Part shown: in pieces, positions 40 through 62,299 of the stretch
Layout: the number at the start of each line of letters is the position of its first letter
Numbering within the stretch: the first letter of the stretch is position 1
Source: a virus
DNA: 64,000 bases
IMG/VR virus record: IMGVR_UViG_3300025655_003289
Coordinates: 1-64,000 of that record
Direction: 5' to 3' (one strand)
Position numbers and translations under genes: made by a program
Notes under the pieces: generated by a model
What the model was told of the DNA's origin: nothing
Seen by the model: the letters and a program-made list of their open reading frames with translations, nothing else
Database searches by the model: none

Positions 40-62
40 AAAAAAACCCGCCCAAAGGCAGG
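40..62 (-). terminator. Rho-independent terminator of the leftward array
   Basis: Read on the minus strand, CCTGCC, a TTTG loop and GGCGGG form a 6-bp stem (one G-U pair) followed directly by seven T. It lies 26 bases past the stop of the last leftward gene. A weaker GGCC/GGTC hairpin followed by TTTT sits just upstream, so termination may be doubled. A run of nine C at 8-16 follows; I cannot assign it. Confidence 0.7.
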
Positions 63-87
63 TGTAGTGTAGAAAAGACCGAAGGCC

Positions 88-14259: not shown

Positions 14260-14503
14260 TTATGTGATTGTTAATCCAATCAAGGAAGAGCCTAAGTCTG
14301 TAGGTGGATTTATTATAACAGAAAACACAACAAAAGACATACGATATTTAAAGGGGTCTATTATAAGTTGTGGCAATTTCACAGAAGGTATAAGTGAGTC
14401 AAATATAATTTATTACGATAAACATGCTGGACATAGCGTCATTGTTGACGGAGCTCAGTATCTTGTTATACGTCAAAGAGATATAGTTTTAGTAGAAAAT
14501 TAA
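14243..14503 (+). CDS. groES: Phage-encoded co-chaperonin GroES
   Basis: An 86-aa cpn10 family protein. The mobile-loop region is SVGGFIITENTTKDIRYL, and the C-terminal half has YYDKHAGHSVIVDGAQYL then RQRDIVLVEN, typical of GroES barrels. It overlaps groEL by 17 bases, with the purine-rich AAAAGGATAGG before the ATG at 14,243; a GTG start one codon earlier is possible. It would cap the phage GroEL or work with host GroEL. Confidence 0.88.
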   Translation: MKAINDYVIVNPIKEEPKSVGGFIITENTTKDIRYLKGSIISCGNFTEGISESNIIYYDKHAGHSVIVDGAQYLVIRQRDIVLVEN

Positions 14504-33407: not shown

Positions 33408-36400
33408 ATGGAAAAATTATATCAAGCTCTCTACTCTAGTGGAAAGTATACAAAATCATTTGATGAATTTAAGACTCAGTTCGGAACTGAAGAAGGAGCC
33501 AAAAAATTATATTCAGCACTAAACTCAAAAGGCTCATATACAAAATCATTTGATGATTTTAAAACTCAATTTGGATTTGAATTTAAAGGAGCATTAGTTG
33601 ATCAAGAACCTACAGCTGCAGAATCAAAAACTGAACAACCTTCTTTTGAAGATCAGTATGCTGCAATGTCAGAGGAAATGATGAAACAATATACGCCTCA
33701 ACAAGCAAAGACAGAGCCACAGGATGCGGGTGCGACTGTGGAAGAGGGTGTAGCACCCGGTACGGAATTATCATCGGGAGATGGTTCTTCGGATTCTCAA
33801 GAGGAATACGTTGATTCCGACACAGCTATAGCTGATTTTTATATAAAAGACGGGAAGAAAATACCATTAACAGCTGAAGAGTATAAAGATATTAGTTTTA
33901 TTAGCAAGGACTTTGATTACACTCTTGGTGATTCCTATATAATAAAAGGTCCTGGTCTAGGTGAAAATGGAGTTTCGTATAATAAGAAGGAGATTATTGA
34001 GGCGGCTAATCAGTACAATATGTCTCCATCAGCTTATTTACAAAGCTTTATTAATAACCCGAAGTATGGCGTCAGTGTAAAACAAGGTGGTCAGACGGGT
34101 GGATTAGAAGTTCCAGAGACTGTCATAAGTGCAAAAGCTCCAGAGATTACTAGATCCGAGACATACACAGAGTATGTGGACACCCCGAAAGGAACAATCC
34201 CAGTAGAAAGAACGAAGACTGTATCTGTAAATGATGAGGTTGAAAAATACAAGAACGATGTATTAGACCCAATTGATAATGAAATAAGAAGGAAGCAGGA
34301 CGAGATAAACTCACTGCTCACTGATGCTTATGAATCTCAAAACGAGTCTGAATCTAAAAAAATACAAGGAAAGATAGATGAGCTATATGTCGAAAAAGAA
34401 TCTCTAAATCAAAAGAGAGAAAAAGAGATTGGATATTTCATGAGGAATTATAGCGAGGTTGAGCAAAAAGTTGTAAGCAATCTCCTTATGTCTGATACTC
34501 AATCCAACATCGACAAAGCTCTTGGATTAAAATCTAAGTTAGACTTAAAAAGAAAGGCGTTAAGCGACTTTAGAGATGACAATAATATAGAGTTGCTCGT
34601 TGGACAACTTAAAGGTTTTGACAGTCAACTTCTTGATATAGAGAAAAAAATAAAGTCAGCAACAAGCGAGTCTGAAGCTAGAGTTTTGCTTGGTGAGTTT
34701 ATGGATATATACAAGTCCCCAGCTTACGAAAATCTATATAACAAGCTTAGCACAATAGGCAGGGTAAGGGATGAGTTGATAAAAGACAACACGGAGTTAA
34801 TGTCTATGACTGACGATGTTAATCTTGAAGAAAACATCAAAAAAGCTGCTGCTACAGATTATAAAAAGTCATCAATGGCACTTAGAGATGTTGATAGGTT
34901 TCTAGGAAAAACTATGATTGGCTTGTCTGTTATAACGCCTTTTGTTAGTACAGAAGAAAAGGATAAATTAGAAGCTGAAATAACAGCTGCATTCGACGAG
35001 AGATGGAAGAATGTGGCTCAACCATTAAACCTAGATGATTTTAAGTCTGGGAAGGTGTCTTTTGGAGATTATATTGGAGAGGTTCTCGCTTCTAACGCCG
35101 CATCTACTGTAGGTAGTGTCATGATGTACGCTTTACCAGGCGGTCAGGTTATAGCCCCAACTATATTCGGGTTATCACAGGCTGGTCAAAAGAAATCAGA
35201 CTTAAAGTACTACAACAGAATGATAGATGCTCAAATGGAGCAACTAAAAAAGTCTCTAGAAAATCCAGACAACAAAGATAATCAAGATGAAATAATATCT
35301 GAAATAGATAAGCTAGAGCAGTTGAAATACACGGATAACGACATATTCTATTCTGCTGTAATGAGTGGCGTTATTGAGGGTGGGATAACTAGACTTGCTG
35401 GAGCTTTAGGTACTGGGCAGTTAAAAATCCCTGGAGCAGGTAGGCTATTCGAGGGAACTAAAATAGGGAAGGCGTTTTATGACCCCAGTAAATTAAAGCT
35501 TCTTAAAAAGGGTGGTGGAATGACTCTTGGAGAGCTTTCTGAAGAATACCCAATTGCATATCTAGACAAGACTCTTGTGGATAATTTGTGGCTGGGTCAA
35601 GGAAGGAGTGCTAGTAAAATATGGCAAGATATATCAGACATAACCACATGGGATATGACTGCCAATATATTGATAAACTCAGGAGGAAGCGGTCTTGCTT
35701 TTGGTTCTATATCAGCAATGTCTCCATTGGTTAATAACGCCAGAGAGAACGCAAGGAGAAGAGAGCAGTTTGGTAAGTTAATGAACTATAAGAATATCTT
35801 AAATGATAGAAGCTTAGATTATGGTCAAAGGATGGAGGCGGATAAGGAGTACAAAAAACTACTTGCCGAGATTTCCATAAACGAACAAAATGCATGGGCT
35901 AGAATGCTTTCTTTAAGTAGTGAGGAGTTTCAAGAAGTTTATGATTTGACTTACAAAAAAGCTCAAGTAAAAAACAAAGTAGCTGAGTTAACAAGAAAGC
36001 AGATAACGCAAGGGGACAAGGTTCAAAATAAAAATGTACAGTCAATATTAACTGACTTAGATAATGAGTATAGGGGATATGATGATAGGATAAGTGAATT
36101 AATTGACCAAAAAGATGGGGATCTAAAGGCAAAGGATTTCCTCTATATGGCTAATTATCAAGCTGCTTTAGGTGTTTCAAAGGCAAAGTCCGGCAGAAAT
36201 TTCTTCAAAATGGGGGACGCATACATGGATCTTGTTAATGCAGCAAATGATGTTCAGTTAAAAATTGAGAGAGGTGAGCAAGTCGATCAAAATGAAATAA
36301 ATAATATTGCTGAGCAACTCGCATCTAGATTAGAGAATGACAATATGTTTATGAATGTCCCTGAAAAATCCAGGATAAATTTCATAGAGAGCATAAGAAA

Positions 36401-39400
36401 AAGTCCACGAACAGCGTTTGAGGTGTTAACTGCGAATGCTAATGCTAACCACGGAATTACATTTGTCAATGATTCAAAGATAAAGAGCGTCATAAAAGAC
36501 GAAAAACTTAGTGAATTTGACAAAACAATGGCTGCAATCGCTCCAAAGCACGAGGTTGGACACCATTATATGACGGTGAAGAACATAGAAAATATGGACG
36601 AGTCGATCATAGATAGAGCTTACGAGGATTTAAAAAATAAGATAAATCGCAAGATATATAAAAATAGAAATCGTGCATTAAGCAATGAGGTTGAAGAAAG
36701 AATAAAGACGTATGAAGCGATAGCAGGAGGAAATAAAAAGTTGAAGTTTGAGGAGCTGATGAATTTATACTCTGACTTAAACTCTATAGGCTTCATCAAT
36801 GACTCCGATATAGATTCTTCTTTTAGATTTAAAGATTTATTTAGGATTGGACAGAAAGATTTATTTGGCGAGTTAGATTCTGCTGCTGAATCTTCAGACA
36901 TAAACTCTTCAATAATGAACCACTTGAGGTCATTTGAAGGTTTCTGGAAGAGTAAAAATAATCTTAGCGGTGGTTTGTCCAGAGGTAATGGAAGTCTGCT
37001 TAGTGTAGGGGAAAAGAGAGCTATGTACGATAAGATGTTTCGTAGTGGCGAAATAGACATGGACCAATATACAGATGCAATAATGAAGATTGCTGATGAG
37101 CAAGAAAAGAGTCCTAGTTCATGGAAGTCTGTGTTTAATGAAGCTCAAGAAACAATGGACCTCAACAATAAGACGGAGATACTTAACAGGCCAAAAGTAA
37201 GGAAAGCTTTAAAACAGCTCATCGAATATAACGCTAAAGACGTTATTGGCGCTGCTAAAATATCTGAATATGAAAAAGAGTCTTTTATCGATGATGTTAT
37301 AGATGGTTGGGGAGGAAAAACAGGACTTGCTCACAGATTAAAAACATACGATCCTTCTCTTAAAAAATTAAACGGATACTTAACTGACAAGGTTAGGCAA
37401 GAAGCTCTAAACTTAGCTAATAGCACAAAGTACAAGAAAGAGCAGTACGACGTTAGAACTGATGACTACGAAGCTGGATATGACATCGCTTATCAAGATA
37501 ACTTTGACGAGGCATTTGACCATCGTATTTTTGACGAAGGAGATGTTTTAATAGATCCTATATCTATATTTAAGGATAAGGCTTTTGAATCAAAGGCGTC
37601 GGCAGAGGTAAGATCTAAATTTAATACTAGCGAGAAAGCCAAAATGTTTTTTGGAGACACTAGTAATTTAGTAACGGAATCTTTATCTGAGAAATTTCAA
37701 ATACGAGAAGAGAGATTCTTAAAAGAAACTGGACAATTAAATGCTGATGAATTAAACTCTTCAGCAAAAATAATATTCGACGCTGCTGAGGATATATATA
37801 ATATATTACCTGATGCAAACTACGTTCTAGATCCAGCTTCGGCGGAAGGTAGAGGTATTAGCGTAAACATGAAGAGATTACTTCTTGATAACTTCTATGA
37901 GGTTGATTTAACAAGGCCAGAAGTCAATCCTAATACCGGTCGACTTAAAAGGGAATTTGAAGAGGGTGTAGCTAAGACTGGTAAAAAAGTTACTGGAGCT
38001 AGCTCAGGAGTCGTTAAGTTCAAGAAACAGTTCAATAAAGGAGAGTTTTTGTCGATGCTTGGTATTAATGAAGATGGCACAAATAACTCATTTAGAGGTA
38101 AAAGTGATGAAGCTAATTTAAGACTTGCTGTTTTAAGGCAGATTGGTAAATTAATAACCAATACCGAAGGGAGAAAAATAATGGAAGAGATGGGTGTTCC
38201 AACTCAAATGATAGTTGATTTCGGGGCCGGAAGGAGTAGTAGCATGCTTTCTGCTGGGAAAGCATTTACAAGGTCTAAGTTTAAATTTGTAGATTCAGAA
38301 TTAAACATAACAGAAGAAAATATTAGAGAGACAATAGAGTCTTTAGATAGCGACGAGGATTTGTATAGATATGGAAACTATATGATGTCTCAGATGATGA
38401 ATGACGAGAAGTTGTCTGATATGTTCTTCAAGATGGTTTTAAAGCTATATGAGTTAAAAGCTACAAGGTCTAAAGCGCAAACATTATTGACGATGCACCC
38501 TGGCATCAAAGGAATTTTCAATAAGAAGGGTGTTGATGCTAAATCGGTACTTATAGGGTTAGCTGAGATATATAATAATAAAAAGGATTCTAGAATATTA
38601 TCCGAGTACTCTCAGAAAGCTTACAATGTAATATCAAACTTAATAAACGATACTGGCCTTAGTATAGACATAGCTAAATACATATTCCACTTCGATGCGG
38701 AAAATAAATCTAGTGTTGGCTCTGGAAAATTTGACGTTTCAGAGAAAACCAGTAAATACGCCGAAAAAACAAAGGAGGAGTTTAATAAGTTTAGGGAGGA
38801 AGGTATTGACAACAAGCTTTTCTTCTCGAATAAATTGAGTTCTGAGATCAATAAATATTTAAGGGAAACAGTTGGTCAAGATAACGAAACAAGGCTAAAG
38901 CATGTCGAAGGTCTTATAGAAAAAGCAAAAAAATACAATAGCTTAAAGCTTAACATAAGAAACACTGTTATCTCTGGATTGCACGACATGTTGTCTGATC
39001 CAAATCTAACTCCAGAACAATACACTGAAGCTGTTGCATACGCAACTTATGCATTAATCAACACTGGGTCTGGAACTAAAAACTTAGTGGAGATAAGCAA
39101 AGATCACAGTATGATAAGTGAGAATACTTTGATTAGAGGTGACAAGTCTACTCTTTCGGTTATAGAAAAGAAAAAACAAAATCCAAAAGTAAAGCATCAA
39201 CCTTATGTTCAAATAGAGCACGCTGTAACTACATCAAGTTATGACGTTCAAGCAGCTATGTCCGCCATCACTGGTAAAATACCTTCGAACAACTATAGAT
39301 ATAGAGGAGGTGTTGTCGATGCCTCATACTCGAGAAATGTAGATTCAAGAGGTATTAGACTAATAATGAATGGGGTAAACAAAATAGATGTTGACTACAG

Positions 39401-41627
39401 GACTCACTTAACAGGAAGAAGGTATAATGAGCTTAGGACTTTAGCGGAAAAAGACGGAGCTAGGATATTTAGCACATCTAAAGCATTCACTGAGCAAAAC
39501 GGACTTGGAAGTAATCCTGAATCTAAAACAGACAGAGACAATCTTGAGTATGTTACTGCAAATATAATTAAGAAAGCGACGGGTATAAATGTAGACGAGC
39601 AGATATCAGAGTCTACGGCTAGGCTTAATTCTGACAGAAGGAAGAAAGAGTTTAGATTTATGGCTCCTTCAGCTGATGATTTTACTGGTTTTTGGTATTC
39701 ACTACTTGGTAAAGGTAAAGAGGGTGATGCTCAGAAAGCTTTCTTCAACAAGTATTTAACAGATCCGTTGAATCGCGCTTATGTGGCTATGACTCACGCT
39801 AGACAAAAGATAACAAGGGACTTTAAGGACTTGAACAAAGAATATGAAGATGTAAAGGTTTCTATGTCTAAGGGGTCTGGCTATTTAAAATACACAAATG
39901 ACCAGGCGCTTAGAGCATACTTATATTTGAAGTCTGGAAACTCAACATCGACATTAGGAATAAGTGAAGCTGACGCTAAGGCATTAGGTGATATTGTGAT
40001 GTCTAACCCAAGAATGATGGAGTACGCAACTTATCTGCAGGAATTGACAGGGACTACTGAATCATGGGTTAATCCAAAATCTAATTGGACGTTTGGCTCC
40101 ATATTTGAAGACGTTGAGAGAATTATTGATGACGTAAAGAGAGCTGAGTATCTTGCTGAGTGGAAACAGAACGCAGATGCTATTTTCTCTCCGAACAACT
40201 TAAATAAGATAGAATCTCATTACGGGACAGACTTCAGGAATGCACTAGAAGATATGCTATACAGAATAGAAAAGGGGAAAGCTATACCTGAGAAGACAAC
40301 TAAAGAGATGTCTGAGTTTCAGAAGTGGCTTACTGGTTCCGTTGCTGTTACGATGTTCTTTAATGCTAAATCAGCAGTACTTCAGTTAATGTCTATGACA
40401 AACTACATCAACTGGTCTGACAATAACCCTATACAAGCTGCTAAAGCATTCGCTAATATACCTCAGTTTGCTAAAGATGTAGTAAGAATATTCAATTCAG
40501 ACTATCTCAAAGAAAGAAGGGGAGGGTTGAAAACGGAAGTTGAGGCCGCTGTATTAGCTAACGAACTCAGAAAGGGTGGGGTTGAAGGTTATAGAGGTTT
40601 TGTAAATAAATTGTTGCAGAAGGGATTCACTTTCACACAAATAGGCGATAGTTTGGCTATATCTTTTGGTGGTGCTAGCTTTTATAGAAACAGGAAGAAG
40701 TCTTATATGAAAAAAGGAATGAATGAACAACAGGCTCATGATCAAGCTTGGTTGGATTTCATTGAGGCTACTGAGCAATCTCAACAATCAGCCAGACCAG
40801 ATAAATTATCAATGCAACAAACAACTAATGTTGGTCGTGTTTTCTTAGCTTTCCAAAACACGCCTATGCAATACTATAGGCTTACCACTAGAGCTGCTCA
40901 AGATTTAGCCGCTGGAAGGGGTGATAAAAGAGAGCATATAAGTAAGATAGCTTATTATTCATTTGTTCAGTCTGCAATTTTTTCTGGATTACAACAGTCG
41001 CTATTTGCATTTATGGGAGACGCTCCAGAGGATGAAGATGACAAGGAAAAATACGACGCAGAAAAAGAGAAGAGAGTAATAAGAACTATAAATAGTGTTT
41101 TAGACACCATGTTAAGAGGGAGCGGTTTAAGAGGAGCTTATGTTGCCACAGTTAAAAATGCAATGTTAGAATTTGTTGCTCAAGAGAAAAAAGGCTATAA
41201 AGCTGATCACGCTAGGACACTTATAGAAGCATTGAACCTATCAGCTCCAATAGGCATTAAAGCTAGGACATTGTATCAGGGCGCTTACATGAACTACAAA
41301 TACAACAAAGATATTGTAGAGGATATGGGCTTTGATATTGATAACCCAGCATATGATATCGTAGGAAGTTTACTATCGGCTGGCGTTAATATTCCCATGG
41401 ATAAAGTAATAAACGATATAAGACAATTGAAAGAAGCAGCTGATTCTGACAATGACGCATGGCAAAGAGTTGCATTACTTTTAGGATGGAGCACTTGGAA
41501 TCTTGGAATGGAAAATGAAAAGATTGAAAAATTAAAAGAGCAAAAGACGAAAGAGAAAAAAGAGGAAGCCAAAAAGAAGCGCCAAAGTAGATCTGGATGG
41601 GGTAAAAAATCAAAAAGTGGCTGGTAA
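33408..41627 (+). CDS. Giant internal virion protein with HExxH motif (2,739 aa)
   Basis: The largest gene. Residues 3-26 and 33-56 are a tandem repeat, KLY-AL-S-G-YTKSFD-FKTQFG. A disordered acidic stretch follows (about 60-140), then long helical regions. A zincin-like site is H1048-EVGHH with NEVEE about 45 residues later as a possible third ligand. A C-terminal region with NIPMDKVINDIRQLKEA and RVALLLGWSTWNLGM resembles large polyvalent phage proteins, and the end is very basic. No DxDGD polymerase motif was seen, so I do not call it a virion RNA polymerase. Probably ejected at infection, with possible peptidase and membrane-channel roles. Confidence 0.75.
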   Translation: MEKLYQALYSSGKYTKSFDEFKTQFGTEEGAKKLYSALNSKGSYTKSFDDFKTQFGFEFKGALVDQEPTAAESKTEQPSFEDQYAAMSEEMMKQYTPQQAKTEPQDAGATVEEGVAPGTELSSGDGSSDSQEEYVDSDTAIADFYIKDGKKIPLTAEEYKDISFISKDFDYTLGDSYIIKGPGLGENGVSYNKKEIIEAANQYNMSPSAYLQSFINNPKYGVSVKQGGQTGGLEVPETVISAKAPEITRSETYTEYVDTPKGTIPVERTKTVSVNDEVEKYKNDVLDPIDNEIRRKQDEINSLLTDAYESQNESESKKIQGKIDELYVEKESLNQKREKEIGYFMRNYSEVEQKVVSNLLMSDTQSNIDKALGLKSKLDLKRKALSDFRDDNNIELLVGQLKGFDSQLLDIEKKIKSATSESEARVLLGEFMDIYKSPAYENLYNKLSTIGRVRDELIKDNTELMSMTDDVNLEENIKKAAATDYKKSSMALRDVDRFLGKTMIGLSVITPFVSTEEKDKLEAEITAAFDERWKNVAQPLNLDDFKSGKVSFGDYIGEVLASNAASTVGSVMMYALPGGQVIAPTIFGLSQAGQKKSDLKYYNRMIDAQMEQLKKSLENPDNKDNQDEIISEIDKLEQLKYTDNDIFYSAVMSGVIEGGITRLAGALGTGQLKIPGAGRLFEGTKIGKAFYDPSKLKLLKKGGGMTLGELSEEYPIAYLDKTLVDNLWLGQGRSASKIWQDISDITTWDMTANILINSGGSGLAFGSISAMSPLVNNARENARRREQFGKLMNYKNILNDRSLDYGQRMEADKEYKKLLAEISINEQNAWARMLSLSSEEFQEVYDLTYKKAQVKNKVAELTRKQITQGDKVQNKNVQSILTDLDNEYRGYDDRISELIDQKDGDLKAKDFLYMANYQAALGVSKAKSGRNFFKMGDAYMDLVNAANDVQLKIERGEQVDQNEINNIAEQLASRLENDNMFMNVPEKSRINFIESIRKSPRTAFEVLTANANANHGITFVNDSKIKSVIKDEKLSEFDKTMAAIAPKHEVGHHYMTVKNIENMDESIIDRAYEDLKNKINRKIYKNRNRALSNEVEERIKTYEAIAGGNKKLKFEELMNLYSDLNSIGFINDSDIDSSFRFKDLFRIGQKDLFGELDSAAESSDINSSIMNHLRSFEGFWKSKNNLSGGLSRGNGSLLSVGEKRAMYDKMFRSGEIDMDQYTDAIMKIADEQEKSPSSWKSVFNEAQETMDLNNKTEILNRPKVRKALKQLIEYNAKDVIGAAKISEYEKESFIDDVIDGWGGKTGLAHRLKTYDPSLKKLNGYLTDKVRQEALNLANSTKYKKEQYDVRTDDYEAGYDIAYQDNFDEAFDHRIFDEGDVLIDPISIFKDKAFESKASAEVRSKFNTSEKAKMFFGDTSNLVTESLSEKFQIREERFLKETGQLNADELNSSAKIIFDAAEDIYNILPDANYVLDPASAEGRGISVNMKRLLLDNFYEVDLTRPEVNPNTGRLKREFEEGVAKTGKKVTGASSGVVKFKKQFNKGEFLSMLGINEDGTNNSFRGKSDEANLRLAVLRQIGKLITNTEGRKIMEEMGVPTQMIVDFGAGRSSSMLSAGKAFTRSKFKFVDSELNITEENIRETIESLDSDEDLYRYGNYMMSQMMNDEKLSDMFFKMVLKLYELKATRSKAQTLLTMHPGIKGIFNKKGVDAKSVLIGLAEIYNNKKDSRILSEYSQKAYNVISNLINDTGLSIDIAKYIFHFDAENKSSVGSGKFDVSEKTSKYAEKTKEEFNKFREEGIDNKLFFSNKLSSEINKYLRETVGQDNETRLKHVEGLIEKAKKYNSLKLNIRNTVISGLHDMLSDPNLTPEQYTEAVAYATYALINTGSGTKNLVEISKDHSMISENTLIRGDKSTLSVIEKKKQNPKVKHQPYVQIEHAVTTSSYDVQAAMSAITGKIPSNNYRYRGGVVDASYSRNVDSRGIRLIMNGVNKIDVDYRTHLTGRRYNELRTLAEKDGARIFSTSKAFTEQNGLGSNPESKTDRDNLEYVTANIIKKATGINVDEQISESTARLNSDRRKKEFRFMAPSADDFTGFWYSLLGKGKEGDAQKAFFNKYLTDPLNRAYVAMTHARQKITRDFKDLNKEYEDVKVSMSKGSGYLKYTNDQALRAYLYLKSGNSTSTLGISEADAKALGDIVMSNPRMMEYATYLQELTGTTESWVNPKSNWTFGSIFEDVERIIDDVKRAEYLAEWKQNADAIFSPNNLNKIESHYGTDFRNALEDMLYRIEKGKAIPEKTTKEMSEFQKWLTGSVAVTMFFNAKSAVLQLMSMTNYINWSDNNPIQAAKAFANIPQFAKDVVRIFNSDYLKERRGGLKTEVEAAVLANELRKGGVEGYRGFVNKLLQKGFTFTQIGDSLAISFGGASFYRNRKKSYMKKGMNEQQAHDQAWLDFIEATEQSQQSARPDKLSMQQTTNVGRVFLAFQNTPMQYYRLTTRAAQDLAAGRGDKREHISKIAYYSFVQSAIFSGLQQSLFAFMGDAPEDEDDKEKYDAEKEKRVIRTINSVLDTMLRGSGLRGAYVATVKNAMLEFVAQEKKGYKADHARTLIEALNLSAPIGIKARTLYQGAYMNYKYNKDIVEDMGFDIDNPAYDIVGSLLSAGVNIPMDKVINDIRQLKEAADSDNDAWQRVALLLGWSTWNLGMENEKIEKLKEQKTKEKKEEAKKKRQSRSGWGKKSKSGW

Positions 41628-42050: not shown

Positions 42051-42223
42051 CAAATATACAAGATATAAAAATACTTGCTCTAAATGCGGCTACTTTTCTT
42101 TTATCTTTTTCAAATATCGAGACAGTATTGAAGATAATGCTATTACTTATATCAATAGGGTATACCGCTACGAAGTGGTATGAATTATATCGTAATAAAA
42201 AAAAATCTGAGGATGAGGTTTAG
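42047..42223 (+). CDS. Small membrane protein, holin candidate (58 aa)
   Basis: Hydrophobic from about 9-45 (LALNAATFLLSFSN, then IMLLLISIGYTATKW) with charged ends (ELYRNKKKSEDEV): one or two membrane segments and a basic/acidic tail, the style of a class II holin. It overlaps the endolysin start by 11 bases, the usual pairing in lysis cassettes. Confidence 0.62.
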   Translation: MTNIQDIKILALNAATFLLSFSNIETVLKIMLLLISIGYTATKWYELYRNKKKSEDEV

Positions 42224-42581
42224 GTATTTTAAATACAGTGAATTTGATTCCCCTGATGAACCTGGAAGCGGGGAGAAATATATGTCGAATAAACTAATCA
42301 TGATGCTTGATTTAGTCAGGAAAGATTATGGAAGACCAATTAGAATTAACTCAGGATACAGGACTGAGGCTCATAATGCAAAGGTTGGAGGTGTAGCAGA
42401 TTCTCCACATTTGTCAGGAGTGGCTGTAGACATAAAAGTAAATAACAGCCGGGAGAGATATGAATTATTGGCATCATTATTAAAACATAATTTCCATCGC
42501 ATCGGCATAGGAAATACGTTCATACATGTTGATATTGATGAAACTAAAGACCCAGATGTTATCTGGTTATATAATGAATAA
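42213..42581 (+). CDS. Endolysin, M15-type D-Ala-D-Ala peptidase
   Basis: The 122-aa protein from the ATG at 42,213 has GYRTEAHNAKVGG, S64-P-H66-LSGVAVD73 (zinc ligands H66 and D73) and FIHVD (H105 and D107). These are the Peptidase_M15_3 hallmarks; the enzyme cuts peptide cross-links in peptidoglycan for lysis. I chose the start overlapping the holin-like gene because upstream residues are hydrophobic, low-complexity and in the holin frame's tail. There is no signal peptide, so it needs a holin. It is the last plus-strand gene before the terminator. Confidence 0.85.
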   Translation: MRFRYFKYSEFDSPDEPGSGEKYMSNKLIMMLDLVRKDYGRPIRINSGYRTEAHNAKVGGVADSPHLSGVAVDIKVNNSRERYELLASLLKHNFHRIGIGNTFIHVDIDETKDPDVIWLYNE

Positions 42582-42583
42582 AA

Positions 42584-42609
42584 AAAGGGAGCCCGTCAAG
42601 GCCCCCTTT
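42584..42609. terminator. Bidirectional terminator between convergent blocks
   Basis: AAAGGG, one mismatch, GCC paired with GGC, mismatch, CCCTTT around a short CGTCAA loop, with A-run before and T-rich sequence after. It lies between the endolysin (plus) and the TonB-dependent receptor (minus). Confidence 0.75.
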
Positions 42610-42626
42610 CTTCATTTTAATACCTA

Positions 42627-45173
42627 CTAGAACGTATATTTCAAAGATGCGTTCCAAGTGCGACCGAATCCAAACCATACTGAATTGCGAACATCAACAC
42701 CTTTCCAGGTCATCGCATTGCCATCAGCGTGAATATTTGTTTCAGATTCAGAGATGTATACTGTGTTAAACAAGTTGTTAATATTAACACGAGCTGTAAC
42801 TTTGTTTCCAAATAGAGTATATCTAGATGTAAATCCTAAATCAGCTAAACCATATGAAGGAAGCTTAACAGCTCCAGCGTTATCAGGTTTAGTAAATACA
42901 GCATCAGTAGGAGCATAATCAGCGTAAAGATTACCAGCTGTACGATAACTAGCATCTACAGTAACCTTTCCAATTCCTATGTCGCCTAAGTAATAATCCG
43001 CACCAAAGTAAGTAGTGAACTGAGCCGCATCACCTACTTTAGCGTCTTTCAAATAAAGAACTCCTTCACCAATCTCTTGTTGATTTGCATCAAACAAAGT
43101 GGCTTTAAAGTCCTTGGTGTATCTCCAATCTCCAACAGAAATACTACCTTGTAGTTTTAGTTTAGATACTGGGCGATACGTACCTTCAATTTCAATTCCC
43201 TTGTGATTCTCACTTACATCTTTAAATTGGGCAGTTCCTTGGTCTCCTTGGGCATTAAACAATGAACGACTAACAAATCTGTTACCCCAAGACGTAGCAT
43301 AAGCATTTACATTAACACTTAGCTTGTCAGTCTTGTATCCATATCCAACTTCAAAAGAACGAATCTTCTCATTGCGCAAATCAGGGTTAACCTCATTTGC
43401 ATAATTAGGGAATACAGCGTCAAACTGAGGCTGACGATTAATTAATCCAGTGTTGAAAAATACATTTGATTTATCATTAATATTGTAATTAGCACCAGTT
43501 TTTAAATAACCACCACCTTGATTTGCTTTGTCAGAAACTGGATTTCCAGGTTGGTCAAAGTAATCCTCACGTTTGAAAGATTGATTTGATTTACCAAACT
43601 GCAACACAGCGTTTACTCTATTGTCTTCACTAGTATGTTCAACCATACCGTTAACACCTTGCCATCCAACAATTCCTATGTTATAATAATCAATCATAGG
43701 ACCTTTAAGCCCTGTATTTTTAAACGGGGAAGCCTCAACAGTAGCTTCAACAATCTGACCAGCGGAGTTTTTGTTTCCAGTCGAGTAATAGCCATCAAGA
43801 CCAAGAAGGTCGTTAAGAACACGATAGTGGTAACCTTTATAAGAACGTAAATCAATCCCGATAGAAGCACGAAATCCATCTCCTAAATCTTTTTCTAAAT
43901 TAGAAATAGCACCAACCCAGTCATGAGAGTTCATTGAAGCCCTACGAACAAGTACGGCACGATTAACACCATCATCCCTATAACCATTTGAACCAATCAA
44001 CATACCTCCAAACTTAGATATAGATCCACTGTAGGGATTTGTTGTAGATTGATTAACCTCAACTGCTTTGTCAAAATTAATAAATCCATTTCTGTCACGA
44101 GTACCACGGCCATTCGCTAAATACTGCTCGGTCAAATCCTTGTTGAAAGGATAATAATCAATCTCTGCATTTCTAAAGTTACCACCACGAGGGCCAGTAC
44201 CTCCTCCGCGTCCAGCAGAGCCGTACAGAGACGTGTTAAGACTTGTGGTGGAGTTGATGTCCCAATCCCAGTTTAACGTAGCTAGTGGCTTATTATAAAA
44301 ATTCCTACGCATATTGTACTCCTCGCCATTCAGGAAACCAGCATCGGTGTTCCATCTTTGGTCAATCTTTCCTGGAGTTCCAAAATTAATGTAATCACGT
44401 ATTGAAACCCAAGAGCTACGTTGGTGATGCCATTGTCCTGCACCCAAGATAGATAGATTCAAGGAGTGATTAGAGTCCTTAGGAGCATACCCTAACGCAA
44501 AGAAATACGTTAAGCCTTCTCCCGATGTTCCGTAAACATAACCGTCTCCAGCCCATTTACTCAACAACACTGAGGATGCCCATCCAGAGTCGCTCAGACC
44601 TGTGTTGTACACTGCGGATGTTTTTGTGTATCCATCATTTCCAAACGTTTGAGAGAACGAACCTCCCTCTGACAAATCAGCTGTTTTAGTTAAGATGGAT
44701 ACCGTACCACCTACAGATGGAACAGCTAATCTAGATGCTCCAAGGCCACGTTGAATCTGAATACCAGAAGCAACATCGGTAAGTCCCTGCCAGTTAGACC
44801 AATACACCCATCCATTCTCCATATCATTGACTGGTTGTCCGTTGATAAGAAATGATGTGTTGCGTTGGTCGAAACCGCGTAATGTGATTCGGGAATCTCC
44901 ATAACCACCACCTTGCTTTGTGGCGTAAACACTTGGAGTACTTTTCATAATTTCAGGAAACTCTTGATTCCCTACTTTTAATGAAATCTCATTCGAAGAG
45001 ATTGTCGACACCGCAACGGGGGTTGCCCGTTCTTTTGCGATGTCAATAATCCTAGAGGATACTGTAACCTCATTTAGTTTCTCTACCAAGATAATCGTTG
45101 AGTCTTGGTCTTTTTCTTGAGCGGTTATTGAAGCCGTCCAGATTAATGATAAAATAAACAAAAGTTTCTTCAT
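42627..45173 (-). CDS. TonB-dependent outer-membrane receptor (phage-borne)
   Basis: This intact 848-aa protein has a signal peptide (MKKLLFILSLIWTASITA, cut before QEKD), a TonB-box-like NEVTVSSR at about 34-41, and a plug domain (about 45-165) with ITLRGFDQRNTSFLINGQ, SNWQGLTDVA and GIQIQRGLGASRLAVP. A 22-strand barrel follows, and the last residue is Phe (NASLKYTF), the barrel-assembly signal. The Bacteroidota N-terminal carboxypeptidase-like domain is absent. Such receptors import siderophores, vitamins or glycans. It lies 37 bases after nrdA in the same orientation and before a terminator, so it is probably expressed with the nucleotide genes during infection. Phage function is unknown: receptor decoy, superinfection exclusion or nutrient uptake are possible. 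Confidence 0.92.
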   Translation of the reverse strand: MKKLLFILSLIWTASITAQEKDQDSTIILVEKLNEVTVSSRIIDIAKERATPVAVSTISSNEISLKVGNQEFPEIMKSTPSVYATKQGGGYGDSRITLRGFDQRNTSFLINGQPVNDMENGWVYWSNWQGLTDVASGIQIQRGLGASRLAVPSVGGTVSILTKTADLSEGGSFSQTFGNDGYTKTSAVYNTGLSDSGWASSVLLSKWAGDGYVYGTSGEGLTYFFALGYAPKDSNHSLNLSILGAGQWHHQRSSWVSIRDYINFGTPGKIDQRWNTDAGFLNGEEYNMRRNFYNKPLATLNWDWDINSTTSLNTSLYGSAGRGGGTGPRGGNFRNAEIDYYPFNKDLTEQYLANGRGTRDRNGFINFDKAVEVNQSTTNPYSGSISKFGGMLIGSNGYRDDGVNRAVLVRRASMNSHDWVGAISNLEKDLGDGFRASIGIDLRSYKGYHYRVLNDLLGLDGYYSTGNKNSAGQIVEATVEASPFKNTGLKGPMIDYYNIGIVGWQGVNGMVEHTSEDNRVNAVLQFGKSNQSFKREDYFDQPGNPVSDKANQGGGYLKTGANYNINDKSNVFFNTGLINRQPQFDAVFPNYANEVNPDLRNEKIRSFEVGYGYKTDKLSVNVNAYATSWGNRFVSRSLFNAQGDQGTAQFKDVSENHKGIEIEGTYRPVSKLKLQGSISVGDWRYTKDFKATLFDANQQEIGEGVLYLKDAKVGDAAQFTTYFGADYYLGDIGIGKVTVDASYRTAGNLYADYAPTDAVFTKPDNAGAVKLPSYGLADLGFTSRYTLFGNKVTARVNINNLFNTVYISESETNIHADGNAMTWKGVDVRNSVWFGFGRTWNASLKYTF

Positions 45174-45210: not shown

Positions 45211-46995
45211 CTACCCGTCACAAGACAAGCAATCTGGATTCATTGCCTTCATTGCAATATCACCCCTTAAAACTGATTCTGTACGCATATAATATAACGT
45301 CTTAACGCCTTTCTTCCAAGCGTCTAAATGAACTTGGTTAATCCATTTAGGAGTTGCTTCTGAAGGGAACGCAAGATTTAGAGATACGGATTGGTCGATG
45401 TACTGTTGGCGTATTCCAGCTTGATTAACTAACTCAAGTTGATTAATCTCTTTGAATGTCTTAAATACGTCTTTAACAGCTTCGAATCCTTCAAGCTTAA
45501 TCTTTTCAAGTGTACTCTCTTGGATATCAGCAATAGACTGCAATCCACGAGGAGTAAAAACATAATCATCTAGCTCTTTTATTCCTTGAACAGAACCCTT
45601 GTCTTCTAATATTTTATCCCATATGGCTTTCGTATTTAAACCAATATCATCTAAAACCTTTTCAAGCTCTGGGTTCTTTCGAATAAACGTTCCCTTAGCA
45701 GATTGTTCCGTAAATAGATTAGCGGCCCAAGGCTCAATACCCGGAGAAACATTACCCGAAAGCTTTGAGTTTGATACTGTAGGAGCGATTGCTCGTAAGT
45801 GAGTATTTCTAAATCCTGTATCTCTACACCATAGCGGCTCTCCATAAATCTTCGCAAGGTCTCTTGAGGCTCGTTCCGATTCAATCTTAATCTGGCTGAA
45901 AATCTTTCTTGTTTCGAACTGCGCTCGAAGACCCTCAAAAGGTATTCCCCTTTGTTGTAGATAAGTATGCCATCCCAAAACTCCAAGCCCCAAAGCTCTC
46001 CCTTTTTCCGCGCTGCGGACACTATTCTCAAAACCTTTAAGCCCTTTCGCCCTCTGAATAAATTCTTCAAGTACACCATCCAAAAACCAAATAGAGTGGT
46101 ATACCAAGTCAGTGTCTTTCCATTCATTATATTTAGCTAAATTTACTGAACTAAGGCAACACACAAAACTATGGGTTTCATCCGTATGTAGTGTTATCTC
46201 GGAACAGATGTTAGTCATGTGTACTTTTAATCCGTTTGTTCTATATGCTTCTGGATTCGCTTTGTTAGTGTTTCCTTTAAAAAGGATATATGGTTCTCCA
46301 GTTGCTTTACGCTTTTGGAGAAGCTTACCCCATTTCCTTCTCGCATCGATATCTCCTCCTTCAAGTCTTCGCATAAACTTATCTCCGATAACAACACATT
46401 GGTGAAGGTTGAGAGATTGTCTATTGACATCCCCTTTTGGCTCTCTGATTTCAAGAAAGCTTTCAAAGTCGTCGTGGTCAATGTTGAGATTAACTGACGC
46501 AGCCCCTCGTCTGACAGACCCTTGTGAGGTTGCAAGTATTGTTGAATCATATATCTTACAAAATGGAACAACACCATCTGATGTTCCGTTATTAGTTATT
46601 TTAGCTCCCGCAGGACGTATCATATTAATACCTACGCCAACACCGCCTCCGTGTTTGGCAAGTATCATCATCTCCAGATTCTTAGATCCAATCTCTTGGA
46701 TACTATCTCCGACATCTATTCCGAAACAAGATATAGGAAGACCTCTGTCTGTTCCTGTGTTAGATAATACTGGAGAGGCTAGATTTAACCAGCCTTTCCA
46801 GATATAATCAAAGAAGATAGAAGCCATCTCAGGCTTATATAATCTCTTAGCTACAGTAGTGGCAACTCTCTCATACGCATCCTTAGGAGTCTCCCACGGC
46901 AGAAGATACCCACCAATTATTGTTTTCTTGTACACTTCAGTGTCTCCCCATTCAGGATAGTCAATCCCAACCTTCCAGTTCTCGTTCCAAGTCAT
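45211..46995 (-). CDS. nrdA: Ribonucleotide reductase class I alpha subunit
   Basis: 594 aa, compact (bacterial NrdA about 760), lacking an N-terminal ATP cone. Redox Cys C90 is in LPISCFG. The thiyl-radical site is N262-I-C264-S-E266, matching the N-x-C-x-E triad, with the partner Cys at C279/C280 in SFVCCLSS. The C-terminal shuttle pair is CLSCDG at the very end. Reduces NDP to dNDP with NrdB at 47,753. No glutaredoxin or thioredoxin gene is seen in the window, so host reductants are probably used. Confidence 0.92.
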   Translation of the reverse strand: MTWNENWKVGIDYPEWGDTEVYKKTIIGGYLLPWETPKDAYERVATTVAKRLYKPEMASIFFDYIWKGWLNLASPVLSNTGTDRGLPISCFGIDVGDSIQEIGSKNLEMMILAKHGGGVGVGINMIRPAGAKITNNGTSDGVVPFCKIYDSTILATSQGSVRRGAASVNLNIDHDDFESFLEIREPKGDVNRQSLNLHQCVVIGDKFMRRLEGGDIDARRKWGKLLQKRKATGEPYILFKGNTNKANPEAYRTNGLKVHMTNICSEITLHTDETHSFVCCLSSVNLAKYNEWKDTDLVYHSIWFLDGVLEEFIQRAKGLKGFENSVRSAEKGRALGLGVLGWHTYLQQRGIPFEGLRAQFETRKIFSQIKIESERASRDLAKIYGEPLWCRDTGFRNTHLRAIAPTVSNSKLSGNVSPGIEPWAANLFTEQSAKGTFIRKNPELEKVLDDIGLNTKAIWDKILEDKGSVQGIKELDDYVFTPRGLQSIADIQESTLEKIKLEGFEAVKDVFKTFKEINQLELVNQAGIRQQYIDQSVSLNLAFPSEATPKWINQVHLDAWKKGVKTLYYMRTESVLRGDIAMKAMNPDCLSCDG

Positions 46996-47137
46996 ATTTT
47001 TTTGTTATATTAGGTTCTACTATTTCGTATCTATGTCCATCCTTGTACCACTGTGTACTCTTATCGTCGAGTCTCCTCCATTTCCAGTTAGGCACTTTTT
47101 TACAAAGCACCCATAATAATTCCTCGTTATTTTCCAT
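46961..47137 (-). CDS. Hypothetical protein between nrdA and thyX, 58 aa
   Basis: Trp-rich and charged (MENNEELLWVLCKKVPNWKW, then WYKDGHRYEIVEP). Start placed at the ATG at 47,137, which overlaps the thyX stop by 11 bases; its end overlaps nrdA by 35 bases. Tight packing in the nucleotide operon argues that it is translated. Function unknown. Confidence 0.58.
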   Translation of the reverse strand: MENNEELLWVLCKKVPNWKWRRLDDKSTQWYKDGHRYEIVEPNITKKYDLERELEGWD

Positions 47138-47771
47138 ATAATTCAAATGCTCTTAACGTATATCGAAACGGATTTCCTTCAATATTCTTAACAAGGGATA
47201 ACATCTCTTGCGCAATTTCTCTAATCTCTTTTTGAGCGTGTTCACTATTTCTAAGTTTTAAAAAGTTTGCAAAGCTTCTCATATTAAACATAACATCGGA
47301 CTGAATCTGAGAGTTGTAAGCTTTGAAAAACCTAGCAGACTCTTTAGCCCTTTTCCTGCCCAATGGACCAGATAACTCATTCAGACATTCGTGATACAAC
47401 TTATTACTAAGCTGACTAAATGTGTCAAGCCTCTCTATCCAATCATCTGGCCAGTCTTCCGGAATATAAGATTTATCTTCCTTCAATTCCTTATATCTAG
47501 CTGATTCGGCATTTAGAGAAGATATGCGGTGCTTTAATAGATGTATATGACTGGCAATATCACAATCAACAAGAAAGTGCACTGTACCTTTCTCAAATGG
47601 CGTCTCGTGACCATGAGACCACAACATATCTATCAATGCAGGGATACGCTCCCTTTTTTCATCTGTCAAATCTCTTGATGTCGATGTCCAAGCACTACAA
47701 GCTATAACCTCGTCACTGCCATAATAACCTAATAATTCAACTTTATTTTCTCCTACCATAGTTCTTCCCAA
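47127..47771 (-). CDS. thyX: FAD-dependent thymidylate synthase
   Basis: The 214-aa protein has the ThyX motif KHRISSLNAESARY at 80-93 (canonical RHRxxSxNxxSxR with K for the first R), an N-terminal WSHGHETPFEKG before it, and a helical C-terminus. It makes dTMP from dUMP using methylene-THF and FAD/NADPH, a common phage replacement for host ThyA. Starts inside the end of nrdB (19-base overlap). Confidence 0.92.
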   Translation of the reverse strand: MGRTMVGENKVELLGYYGSDEVIACSAWTSTSRDLTDEKRERIPALIDMLWSHGHETPFEKGTVHFLVDCDIASHIHLLKHRISSLNAESARYKELKEDKSYIPEDWPDDWIERLDTFSQLSNKLYHECLNELSGPLGRKRAKESARFFKAYNSQIQSDVMFNMRSFANFLKLRNSEHAQKEIREIAQEMLSLVKNIEGNPFRYTLRAFELYGK

Positions 47772-48721
47772 TCCTCTTTTTCGTTAGCTTTAGAATAATC
47801 TGTTGGTCTTATTGCAAAGAAATCTGTATGCGTAACACCTCCAGTTAAGTGGTAGAACCAATCCAACTCGCTAGCGCTATCGCTGTCAAATTTAAAATAA
47901 TTAGCATGGTCATTATATCCCAGTTCGACAATTTTTTCATTAATTCTTTTACGTATAAAATTCTTTAAGTCTTTAGCTTTGAGATTTTCAATATCCCCCT
48001 GCTCAAACATCTTGTCAATGTATTTCTCTTCAAGAGTAAGCATTACTGCCGCAGCCTCCAAAACATCACTACGAACATCGTCCTTCAGTCCTGGTATCTC
48101 ATCGCATATATGCCTAAACAACTGACAACCCATCTTACTGTGTAACGATTCATCACGTACACTCCATTTCATTTGTTGCCCAATCCCTTTGAGCATATTT
48201 CGCAATTGGAAGCTGTACAATACAGCAAATGCGCTGTAAAGAGAAACGCCTTCTGCGAACGCAGAAAATATTGCCAAAGATCTAGCAATACCTTTTGGAT
48301 CTTTACCATCATAACTGACTAAATTATCAAACCTTGCAGCAGTTGTTGGCTCGTGCAAGAAAGCCTCAAAATCTTCAAGACCTAGTGTTTCGTTTAAATA
48401 AGAATAAGCTACTGCGTGTATTGTTTCCTGAGAACCAAACATCATAGCCATTTGTTGTATCTCGTGCTTAGGGAACCATCCGACTACCTTTTGAGTCCAA
48501 TAATCAGATACTGCGCATTCAGTCTGCGCAAAACCAAGTAGTATATTTCCGACTAAGTTCTTTTCAGATTCAGTAAGTTTCTCATTCCAATCTTTTACAT
48601 CTCCAGACATAGGAATCTCTGTGTGTAGCCAAAATGCTTGAGCCTGTGGAAGCCAACCTTCAGTATAATATACTGGGTATTCAAATGGTTTGTAAGGTAT
48701 TCTTTCGTCAAATAATCCCAT
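47753..48721 (-). CDS. nrdB: Ribonucleotide reductase class I beta subunit
   Basis: 322 aa. Metal ligands by pattern: E68 in FAQTECAVS, E99 and H102 in QETIHAVAY, E157 in FAEGVSLY, E191 and H194 in RDESLHSKMG. The radical Tyr is Y106, four residues after H102, as in standard R2. So this is a tyrosyl-radical, not a Phe-type, subunit. First gene of the nrdB-thyX-nrdA-TBDR group, just after a terminator, so it should have its own promoter in 48,722-48,785 (not seen clearly). Confidence 0.93.
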   Translation of the reverse strand: MGLFDERIPYKPFEYPVYYTEGWLPQAQAFWLHTEIPMSGDVKDWNEKLTESEKNLVGNILLGFAQTECAVSDYWTQKVVGWFPKHEIQQMAMMFGSQETIHAVAYSYLNETLGLEDFEAFLHEPTTAARFDNLVSYDGKDPKGIARSLAIFSAFAEGVSLYSAFAVLYSFQLRNMLKGIGQQMKWSVRDESLHSKMGCQLFRHICDEIPGLKDDVRSDVLEAAAVMLTLEEKYIDKMFEQGDIENLKAKDLKNFIRKRINEKIVELGYNDHANYFKFDSDSASELDWFYHLTGGVTHTDFFAIRPTDYSKANEKEDWEELW

Positions 48722-53021: not shown

Positions 53022-53363
53022 CTATTTCTCATAAGGAACTGCGTGTCCTTCTCGTAACATTAATTCACTTAGGTTCTCACCATCTACATATATTTCTCCA
53101 AGGCTTCTTCCAAAACTATCAAGTTCAGAAGAATGAACAACCATATATGCATCTCTATTATCATCCATGTATATCCTCAAAAAATCTTTAGCTTCTAAGC
53201 CTCTTTCTTTCTCCTCTAAATCTTTAGTTCTCGTCTCTGGAGAGTTTATACCAAGCAACCTTATAGTTATATTGTGGAATATACTAAAGCCAAGATCTAC
53301 TGTTGCTTCTATTGTGTCTCCATCTACAACTCGACGAACTTTTGTAATTTCGTATGTGTACAT
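53022..53363 (-). CDS. Staphylococcal-nuclease-like (SNase) protein, 113 aa
   Basis: VVDGDTIEATVDLG at about 12-25, IRLLGINSPETR with R35 and E43, and HSSELDSFGRSLGE near the end. SNase residue D40 is N40 here, as seen in some nuclease relatives; the other catalytic residues are kept. No signal peptide, so it works inside the cell on DNA or RNA, perhaps host DNA degradation or nucleotide recycling. Confidence 0.8.
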   Translation of the reverse strand: MYTYEITKVRRVVDGDTIEATVDLGFSIFHNITIRLLGINSPETRTKDLEEKERGLEAKDFLRIYMDDNRDAYMVVHSSELDSFGRSLGEIYVDGENLSELMLREGHAVPYEK

Positions 53364-61581: not shown

Positions 61582-61595
61582 AACAATTACTTTAG

Positions 61596-61667
61596 TACCC
61601 TCACCTAGAATCGAACTAGGAATCCAAGCTTAGAAGGCTAGTGTTATATCCGTTTAACTATAAGGGC
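61596..61667 (-). tRNA. tRNA-Arg (TCT)
   Basis: Cloverleaf fits: acceptor GCCCTTA with TGAGGGT plus A, D stem GTTA/TAAC, anticodon loop CTTCTAA (TCT), T stem CCTAG/CTAGG with TTCGATT loop. Anticodon stem CTAGC/GCTTG has one T-T mismatch. 72 bases. No encoded CCA. Confidence 0.85.
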
Positions 61668-61672
61668 ATTTG

Positions 61673-61744
61673 TAGCGGAGATGGGAATCGAACCCACTAC
61701 CTCTGGGTTATGAGCCCAGTATGCAACCGATACACTTCTCCGCA
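61673..61744 (-). tRNA. tRNA-Met (CAT), initiator-like
   Basis: Anticodon loop CTCATAA, anticodon stem CTGGG/CCCAG with the three consecutive G-C pairs of initiators. Position 1 (T) cannot pair with position 72 (T), also an initiator feature. D-stem pair 11-24 is T-A, an elongator trait. T loop TTCGATT. No encoded CCA. Confidence 0.8.
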
Positions 61745-61750
61745 ATATAG

Positions 61751-61823
61751 AGCCTCCCACAGGAATCGAACCCGCAACCTACTGAGTACAAATCAGTTGC
61801 TCTACCAATTGAGCTAGAGAGGC
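61751..61823 (-). tRNA. tRNA-Thr (TGT)
   Basis: Acceptor GCCTCTC with GGGAGGC plus T, D stem GCTC/GAGC, anticodon stem ACTGA/TCAGT with loop TTTGTAC (TGT), T stem GCGGG/CCTGT and loop TTCGATT. 73 bases. Confidence 0.9.
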
Positions 61824-61828
61824 AATTC

Positions 61829-61946
61829 AAGATAGGCTTCGGGTCTTTCAGGGTTTCTGGTTAATGGTTTGTTTACGCTCGGATTACTACAAACCCTTTT
61901 TCATCCTTTTAACACCACCATTAACTACAGCTTCACTGCCTATCTT
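61829..61946 (-). ncRNA. Structured non-tRNA element within the tRNA cluster, about 118 nt
   Basis: Bounded by the perfect 9-bp pair AAGATAGGC (61,829-61,837) and GCCTATCTT (61,938-61,946). Inside, GTTAATGG (61,860-61,867) pairs with CCATTAAC (61,918-61,925). AGGGTTT (61,850-61,856) can pair with AAACCCT (61,891-61,897), crossing the previous stem like a pseudoknot, and GGTTTGT (61,866-61,872) can alternatively pair with ACAAACC (61,889-61,895). No T-loop, no anticodon stem, and it occupies a slot 6 and 4 bases from the flanking tRNAs, so it should be processed with them. Confidence 0.55.
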
Positions 61947-61949
61947 TTG

Positions 61950-62023
61950 TAACCCCGGTAGGATTCGAACCTACGACCCCCTCATTAAAAGTGAGGTGCT
62001 CTAACCAACTGAGCTACGAAGTT
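61950..62023 (-). tRNA. tRNA-Lys (TTT)
   Basis: Acceptor AACTTCG with CGGGGTT plus A, D stem GCTC/GAGC, anticodon stem CCTCA/TGAGG with loop CTTTTAA (TTT), T stem GTAGG/CCTAC with TTCGAAT. 74 bases. Confidence 0.9.
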
Positions 62024-62072
62024 AATTGCAGGCCTTGCACCTGCCCGGGGACATATATCCTCCCAAAGTAAG
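62024..62072 (-). other. tRNA-like hairpin region between tRNA-Lys and tRNA-Pro
   Basis: Minus strand contains GCAGG, TGCAAGG, CCTGC, shaped like a T arm, and GGGA/TCCC as a second hairpin. It has no anticodon arm and no acceptor pairing I can find. It may be a tRNA remnant or a spacer hairpin. Confidence 0.3.
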
Positions 62073-62146
62073 TCTAGATGGAAGGATTCGAACCTCCGAC
62101 CCCACGCTTCCAAAGCGTATGCGCTACCTGACTGCGCTACATCTAG
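62073..62146 (-). tRNA. tRNA-Pro (TGG)
   Basis: Acceptor CTAGATG with CATCTAG plus A, D stem GCGC/GCGC, anticodon stem TACGC/GCGTG with loop TTTGGAA (TGG), T stem GGAGG/CCTTC with TTCGAAT. 74 bases. Confidence 0.9.
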
Positions 62147-62149
62147 ATA

Positions 62150-62223
62150 AAGATAAGATAGACGGCTACCCTTATGAGCTTACAGTTACGGCCATTCTAA
62201 TTTTTTCTCCGTTATCTTATCTT
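62150..62223 (-). ncRNA. Structured non-tRNA element within the tRNA cluster, 74 nt
   Basis: An 11-bp perfect stem pairs 62,150-62,160 (AAGATAAGATA) with 62,213-62,223, extended by 4 bp (ACGG with CCGT) after a bulge. It is exactly tRNA-sized and tRNA-spaced (3 and 5 bases from neighbours), but lacks a T loop and anticodon stem. Either a degenerate tRNA or a small structured RNA. Confidence 0.5.
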
Positions 62224-62228
62224 AGATG

Positions 62229-62299
62229 ATACTCGACTAGGACTTGAACCTAGAATACTTGAATCAAAATCAAGTGTGTTACCATTACACCATCGAGTA
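62229..62299 (-). tRNA. tRNA-Gln (TTG)
   Basis: Acceptor TACTCGA with TCGAGTA plus T, D stem GTGT/ACAC, anticodon stem CTTGA/TCAAG with loop TTTTGAT (TTG), T stem CTAGG/CCTAG with TTCAAGT. First tRNA of the cluster in transcription order. Confidence 0.9.

Follow-up and report, generated by a model that had tools for sequence, protein, structure and literature searches.

A TonB-dependent receptor gene in the ribonucleotide reductase operon of a marine Bacteroidota phage, and its possible role in nucleic-acid uptake

Host-derived phage genes such as pstS in cyanophages, and nrdAB and thyX, boost the supply of a limiting nutrient during infection. TonB-dependent receptors (TBDRs) have been listed, under the name SusC, in the megaphages Mar_Mega_1 and LR745206 and proposed to serve auxiliary carbohydrate uptake (PMC9723777), and the same paper cites a NAD salvage pathway in Vibrio phage KVP40. 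Here we describe a TBDR gene at positions 42627-45173 (minus strand) of a 64,000-nucleotide stretch of DNA (the window), which covers nearly all of the 64,742-bp IMG/VR virus record IMGVR_UViG_3300025655_003289. The gene resembles those of the megaphages in being a phage-encoded TBDR proposed as an auxiliary uptake gene, and would be, like pstS, nrdAB/thyX and the KVP40 pathway, a host-derived contribution to nutrient supply. It differs from the latter group in that an outer-membrane transporter, together with the secreted nucleases of its relatives, would reach outside the cell, which is undescribed in the literature searched. That literature, of open-access papers only, so that absence is weak evidence, contained no well-characterised phage TBDR, in agreement with the initial annotation of this DNA, and neither this family nor its gene cassette; PMC9723777 mentions TBDRs, and that of LR745206 is of another type.

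We conclude that the gene truly belongs to the phage and has long done so. Its product is almost certainly a phage-borne receptor that is under selection and competent for active transport. The import of nucleic-acid breakdown products or nucleosides is, with moderate confidence, the likeliest single function of the phage receptors.

The gene is a complete open reading frame (ORF) with an ATG start, encoding 848 residues that end in ...SLKYTF and begin with the signal-like sequence MKKLLFILSLIWTASITA. The Pfam Plug domain (PF07715, E 9e-12, residues 48-156) and barrel domain (PF00593, E 4.5e-12, residues 302-801) both score over their curated cut-offs. AlphaFold2 (AF2), using an alignment of 90 relatives, gave a model with a mean pLDDT of 85.9 and a pTM of 0.84, whose nearest folds in Foldseek are FhuA (E 1.4e-47), PqqU and YncD. 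Complexes of FhuA with T5 are also among the fold matches. The signal peptide and the TonB box were located by eye from the sequence and alignment, and the strand number of the barrel is not an exact count. The protein has the plug, barrel and fold, TonB box, signal peptide and C-terminal aromatic residue of a TonB-dependent transporter, and is the complete receptor, with terminal Phe, that it had been annotated to be. It is not SusC-like, having neither the N-terminal extension (CarboxypepD_reg/STN type) nor an adjoining SusD-like gene. Nor does it belong with the haem receptors or BtuB: the NCBIfam profiles for haem/transferrin receptors match weakly (TIGR01786, 53.6 bits against a cut-off of 323.75), and there is no match to TIGR01779.

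The receptor gene is the final gene of an operon with the order nrdB-thyX-small ORF-nrdA-TBDR, and is separated from nrdA by 37 bp. The window also encodes terminase, portal and virion proteins, which places the receptor inside a phage operon with nrdA, as first annotated. The virus is podovirus-like and infects marine Bacteroidota. Its terminase and capsid are closest to those of a Manatee Spring podovirus genome, Maribacter phage Panino, the elemo-type Flavobacterium phages and the Cellulophaga phages, while its nrdA product is 60% identical to that of Flavobacterium phage immuto. The receptor was not found in those of these relatives that are in culture, namely Panino and the elemo-type Flavobacterium and Cellulophaga phages; Panino has a ribonucleotide reductase (RNR), with no TBDR annotated adjoining it. 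Three contigs from other metagenomes (L051, L052 and L054) come from relatives of the window phage (84% identity in nrdA and 88% in nrdB), and in these the TBDR adjoins nrdA in the matching position. A further TBDR-bearing phage contig near the window phage (L096, NZGF01000066.1) is binned in a Crocinitomicaceae genome, a possible hint of the host.

The family is widespread among phages. One scan of IMG/VR returned 444 relatives, with identities of 64-75% for the 80 best, and when two further queries were added, at least 97 distinct contigs (counted by hand) carried close relatives at 64-80% identity within phage flanks. The flanking genes encode T4-type clamp, clamp loader subunits, family B DNA polymerase, GroEL/GroES, thioredoxin, RNR and IMPDH, and the flanking gene families are almost disjoint from those around the cellular homologues. 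T4-type Gp23 and terminase are encoded on TBDR-bearing contigs of 191, 252 and 297 kb. Misassembly, which had been named as a possible refutation, and host contamination are thus ruled out in practice, since independent contigs are syntenic and their flanks are disjoint from those of hosts.

Phage and host copies are interleaved in trees. In a 45-sequence tree, a single phage clade, and thus a single phage origin, is rejected by the approximately unbiased (AU) test (p 2.7e-37), and at least 9-11 changes between phage and host are required, of which the tree does not give the direction. Large phage-only clades are present, and therefore there has been more than recent capture. The phylogeny proposed earlier as a check does then contain plausible phage-borne clades among the host copies. 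The first trees split the window TBDR from those of L051, L052 and L054, as if it had been swapped in situ; this was dropped, because the AU test allows one clade (p 0.7), and vertical descent in the window-phage lineage is therefore possible.

The initial annotation had seen acquisition from a host in a missing N-terminal domain and a locally higher G+C content. The domain is indeed missing, but forms of about 840 and about 900 residues are both common in phage and host relatives, so that its lack is uninformative on origin. The G+C content gives no support either: it is 0.400, compared to 0.372 +/- 0.031 for the window genes and 0.404 for the adjoining nrdA, the third-position value (GC3) is average (0.304 against a mean of 0.312), and codon use resembles that of the window phage. 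The interleaved tree implies that the gene has ultimately been exchanged with hosts, but recent acquisition is not supported by GC3 or by the missing domain.

Pairwise dN/dS between phage copies of usable divergence is about 0.02-0.25, and these copies are therefore under purifying selection. Among 41 phage TBDRs, conservation is 0.93 for the plug, 0.84 for the long loops (loops being classed by length alone) and 0.83 for the strands, and the TonB-box region is retained. Conservation and low dN/dS together appear to form the pattern expected of a transporter with a fixed substrate, and not of a decoy drifting away from adsorption proteins. With a host-derived homologue on genuine viral contigs and selection keeping its function, the gene is a probable viral auxiliary metabolic gene.

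The neighbours of the phage receptors suggest a link to nucleic acids, the strongest new evidence being a recurrent association with secreted nucleases. A secreted S1/P1 nuclease (S1-P1_nuclease, PF02265, E 3.5e-61) lies 3' of the TBDR on the same strand, usually within 50-400 bp, in 16 of the 80 first-scan loci, and a gene for a secreted DNA/RNA endonuclease (Endonuclease_NS, here NS, PF01223) lies directly 5' in four. Over all scans, S1/P1 follows the TBDR in about 25 phage contigs, NS precedes it in nine, and both are found in five, with the order NS-TBDR-S1/P1-kinase (L076, L178/L365, L351, L359 and L373). A kinase for nucleosides or nucleotides usually accompanies these nucleases. When the search was reversed and an S1/P1 nuclease served as the query, 13 phage loci were obtained, 12 of them with enough upstream sequence to evaluate, and all 12 have a TBDR upstream. 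These loci are not fully independent, because the query retrieves only close relatives. The TBDR is of the window type in ten and BtuB-like in two, where it stands upstream of an S1/P1-kinase block (L166:892-2868 and L168/L300). The receptor family can switch while the pairing of nuclease and receptor persists. Endonuclease_NS was also considered as a TBDR-specific marker and rejected, since most phage NS loci have no TBDR.

The phage S1/P1 proteins match the bacterial S1/P1 nuclease 8qjl (E 3e-29). Both have the zinc-ligand motifs, and in both Trp is the N-terminus of the mature protein, which in the phage form comes right after the signal peptide. The phage form differs from 8qjl, from P1 and S1 and from the plant endonucleases in being phage-encoded and directly downstream of a TBDR. 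It had no matches in 50,697 INPHARED phage records.

When the two genes flanking each of 46 dereplicated phage TBDRs on either side (124 neighbours) were tallied by Pfam family, the families included AAA_28 (9), IMPDH (8), S1/P1 (8), RNR large subunit (5), phosphoribosyltransferase (5), NS (4) and GTP cyclohydrolase I (FolE; 3). An equal-sized sample taken 6-10 genes away had four AAA_28 and two thymidylate synthases, and no other tally family among the 25 families listed. Three loci (L031, L061 and L065) have the order nrdB-nrdA-(Trx)-TBDR-S1/P1-kinase, which ties the nrd-TBDR arrangement of the window to the nuclease arrangement. The neighbouring kinase matches AAA_28 and a PHROG named thymidylate kinase, and aligns to NadR; the nearest structures to its AF2 model are NadR, thymidylate kinase and deoxyadenosine kinase. 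A conserved membrane protein of 72-82 residues is found between the TBDR or nuclease and the kinase (L025:12478-12723, L029:12442-12687, L076:5277-5501 and L178:10250-10468).

Cellular members of the family with at least 60% identity are not common, being present in 6 of the 296 genomes sampled. Homologues occur in Balneolota and Bacteroidota, the closest being 72% identical. Those of 60-72% identity are in about 16 loci linked to pgi, and others are at about 43-46%. The Flavobacteriaceae locus DUF3108-M23 peptidase-pgi-TBDR (gene names assigned by eye) holds a direct homologue of the window receptor; unlike it, this one is chromosomal and outside any nucleotide operon. The host Ca. Arcticimaribacter has a TBDR of 66% identity with an S1/P1 nuclease gene after it; next comes a gene for a NupC-type nucleoside transporter (PF07662, E 3e-66) in convergent orientation, and an NS endonuclease is encoded farther along. 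This region (L297:14016-19999, G002:C170) is a candidate host locus for nucleic-acid utilisation. In two fecal contigs, which were deposited as phage but may be host DNA, NS (E 1e-40 or better) comes after a TBDR of 33% identity, and one of the two also has an EEP nuclease. The slot after pgi in Flavobacteriaceae (L086, L088, L092, L095 and L104; outgroup L138-L159) holds either the 60-72% or the 43-46% type of TBDR, which suggests allelic replacement at a single locus.

The mechanism that we propose is as follows. The receptor is probably produced together with nrdB, thyX and nrdA during infection, and would be placed in the host outer membrane and powered by the host TonB-ExbB-ExbD. There it would most likely take up breakdown products of extracellular DNA or RNA, as oligonucleotides, nucleotides or nucleosides. 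External sources, such as neighbours lysed previously, could in this way supply the infected cell with phosphorus, nitrogen and bases while the phage genome is being copied. Many relatives appear to carry the whole pathway: secreted endonuclease, receptor, secreted S1/P1 nuclease, small membrane protein and nucleoside or nucleotide kinase. In the window phage the nuclease and inner-membrane steps would be supplied by the host. We infer the expression, TonB-driven transport, substrate and benefit of the window receptor, the substrate from its relatives, because a secreted nuclease of the S1/P1 or NS type is absent from the window phage.

More tentatively, many phages of marine Bacteroidota, several of them unrelated, may encode a pathway for feeding on exogenous nucleic acid, often in one operon with RNR, with a parallel in the TBDR-PnuC-NadR genes of huge phages for NAD precursors. 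The infected cell would then be a scavenger of extracellular DNA and RNA in the service of phage replication. Phage auxiliary genes are usually seen as retuning the cell interior, while TBDRs and secreted nucleases in dozens of unrelated phages would alter uptake from the surroundings. Were nucleic-acid debris the substrate, further viral replication would be fed directly by viral lysis, which would short-circuit the cycling of phosphorus and nitrogen in the sea. This would also hint at what a widespread family of host receptors imports.

Several observations weigh against nucleic-acid uptake. The window phage itself has no secreted S1/P1 or NS nuclease, the sole such gene seen being a SNase homologue with no obvious signal peptide. 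In cells, an S1/P1 or NS nuclease lies within about 7 kb in only 2 of 25 further loci sampled, and the EEP nuclease occurs in 9 of 80 first-scan cell loci, nearly all of them the one conserved pgi locus, which is a single inherited arrangement; the remaining host neighbours are diverse, so that host context is mostly uninformative on substrate. The neighbour statistic (57/244 against 6/373, p 8e-19) was calculated with families picked post hoc. The kinase is equally close to NadR and to the deoxynucleoside and thymidylate kinases. Finally, the small membrane protein has no convincing Pfam match except a YgjV-like one in L065.

Import is the best match among the roles first suggested, but the gene neighbourhood favours nucleic-acid products or nucleosides over the iron, cobalamin or glycans then named. 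TBDRs as a class import siderophores, haem, cobalamin and glycans, and class I RNR requires iron. The receptor might therefore take up one of these, the nucleotide genes around it marking only the metabolic gene region of the phage. The nearest folds and the weak NCBIfam matches described above are consistent with this, as are the BtuB-like TBDR in the equivalent slot of L166 and the cellular orthologues, which mostly have no nuclease linkage. No siderophore, haem, B12 or SusD/glycan gene was noticed adjoining the phage TBDRs, however, the NCBIfam scores are far under their cut-offs, and the recurrent pairing with secreted nucleases would be left unexplained. We consider this unlikely, although it is the best of the alternatives.

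A somewhat less likely substrate is a NAD precursor. Here the TBDR would import nicotinamide riboside, nicotinamide mononucleotide or a similar nucleoside cofactor, to be phosphorylated by the NadR-like kinase, and would refill NAD or counter NAD-depleting defences. Huge phages (541-735 kb) have TBDRs of other types (L303:7917-11433, L304:8001-11577, L305:5049-13522 and L306:7989-16292), and in three cases PnuC and NadR come next. In phages of 634-735 kb these genes come directly after the TBDR (PnuC PF04973, E 7e-48), and one such TBDR also has NadE, NAPRTase and an isochorismatase-family gene nearby; in Lak-A1, NadR is about 5 kb farther from the TBDR. These are apparently NAD-precursor uptake operons, which is why this substrate is retained as an alternative, and they support phage TBDRs as import devices in general. 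The LR745206 receptor is of a different family (a quarter of the query aligns, at about 36% identity) with no nuclease linkage seen, and the PnuC and NadR that follow it argue for NAD precursors, not the carbohydrate proposed in PMC9723777. The NAD salvage pathway of KVP40 also speaks for this reading. Near the window-type TBDRs, the adjoining AAA_28 kinase is NadR-like, and NadE is found in L030, L038, L043 and L058. Against this, the fullest cassettes have the receptor between two secreted nucleases, no PnuC was seen in the neighbourhoods examined, and the small membrane protein, when compared with PnuC, gave no match. The window operon is devoted to deoxynucleotide synthesis and contains no NAD gene.

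Superinfection exclusion, by replacing the host receptor of competing phages, and a decoy role were both suggested initially. The TBDR would replace or titrate the receptor of competitors, and the secreted nucleases would break down the DNA of other phages as it enters the periplasm. Phages often use TBDRs as receptors, as the FhuA-T5 matches and docking in PMC10569736 illustrate, injected DNA could be cut by periplasmic nucleases, and TBDR alleles have repeatedly moved between phage and host. Neither role gained positive support: the long loops are conserved like the strands, dN/dS is low, and the TonB box and plug are retained though unnecessary for a decoy. The gene shares its operon with RNR, ThyX and kinases, the host's own receptors would stay in place, and the profile-library searches gave no match to known exclusion-protein families. 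We regard such a role as improbable. That the gene belongs to the host and lies on chimaeric contigs, or that it hitch-hikes neutrally, is very improbable, for although IMG/VR contigs are mostly fragments and host homologues reach 72% identity, independent assemblies share the locus, phage flanks and phage-only clades are present, codon use is phage-like and dN/dS is far under 1, so that synteny and selection mainly refute it.

Table 1. Features of the window around the receptor gene and the nuclease homologue.
Feature	Position	Strand	Evidence	Remarks
TonB-dependent receptor (TBDR)	42627..45173	-	Pfam Plug + barrel, AF2, Foldseek
Parts of TBDR (residues)	signal peptide ~1-18; TonB box ~33-40; plug ~48-156			TonB box LNEVTVSS; 22-strand-type barrel; C-terminal Phe
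nrdA, ribonucleotide reductase large subunit	45211..46995	-	phrog_84, E 1e-153	directly upstream of TBDR
Small ORF, 61 aa	46961..47146	-		without annotation; between thyX and nrdA
thyX-type thymidylate synthase	47127..47771	-	phrog_85, E 5e-34
nrdB, ribonucleotide reductase small subunit	47753..48721	-	phrog_86, E 1e-66
Endolysin-type peptidase	42180..42581	+	phrog_894, E 1e-29	convergent with TBDR; outside proposed uptake operon
G+C-rich hairpin	~42583..42612	.		AAAAAAAGGGAGCC-CGTCAA-GGCCCCCTTTCTTC; between endolysin and TBDR genes
SNase-fold nuclease homologue	53022-53363		E 4e-12	without obvious signal peptide

The hairpin in Table 1 was found by eye and was not listed by a separate scan. 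It is likely to be a bidirectional terminator shared by the endolysin and TBDR genes. Upstream of the lysis gene, at 33408-41627, is an ORF of 2739 residues with no PHROG match, whose product is probably a very large component of the virion. Genes for six tRNAs (Arg, Met, Thr, Lys, Pro and Gln) are clustered at 61595-62299.

The 252-kb T4-like jumbo phage IMGVR_UViG_3300020810_001156 has two TBDRs of different families (L037 and L299), of which the BtuB-like one is two genes downstream of an Endonuclease_NS gene. Genes for a GroEL-like protein (524 residues) and a GroES-like protein (87 residues) are found at 12685-14503 of the window, and GroEL/GroES genes are also present on many of the T4-like contigs that bear a TBDR.

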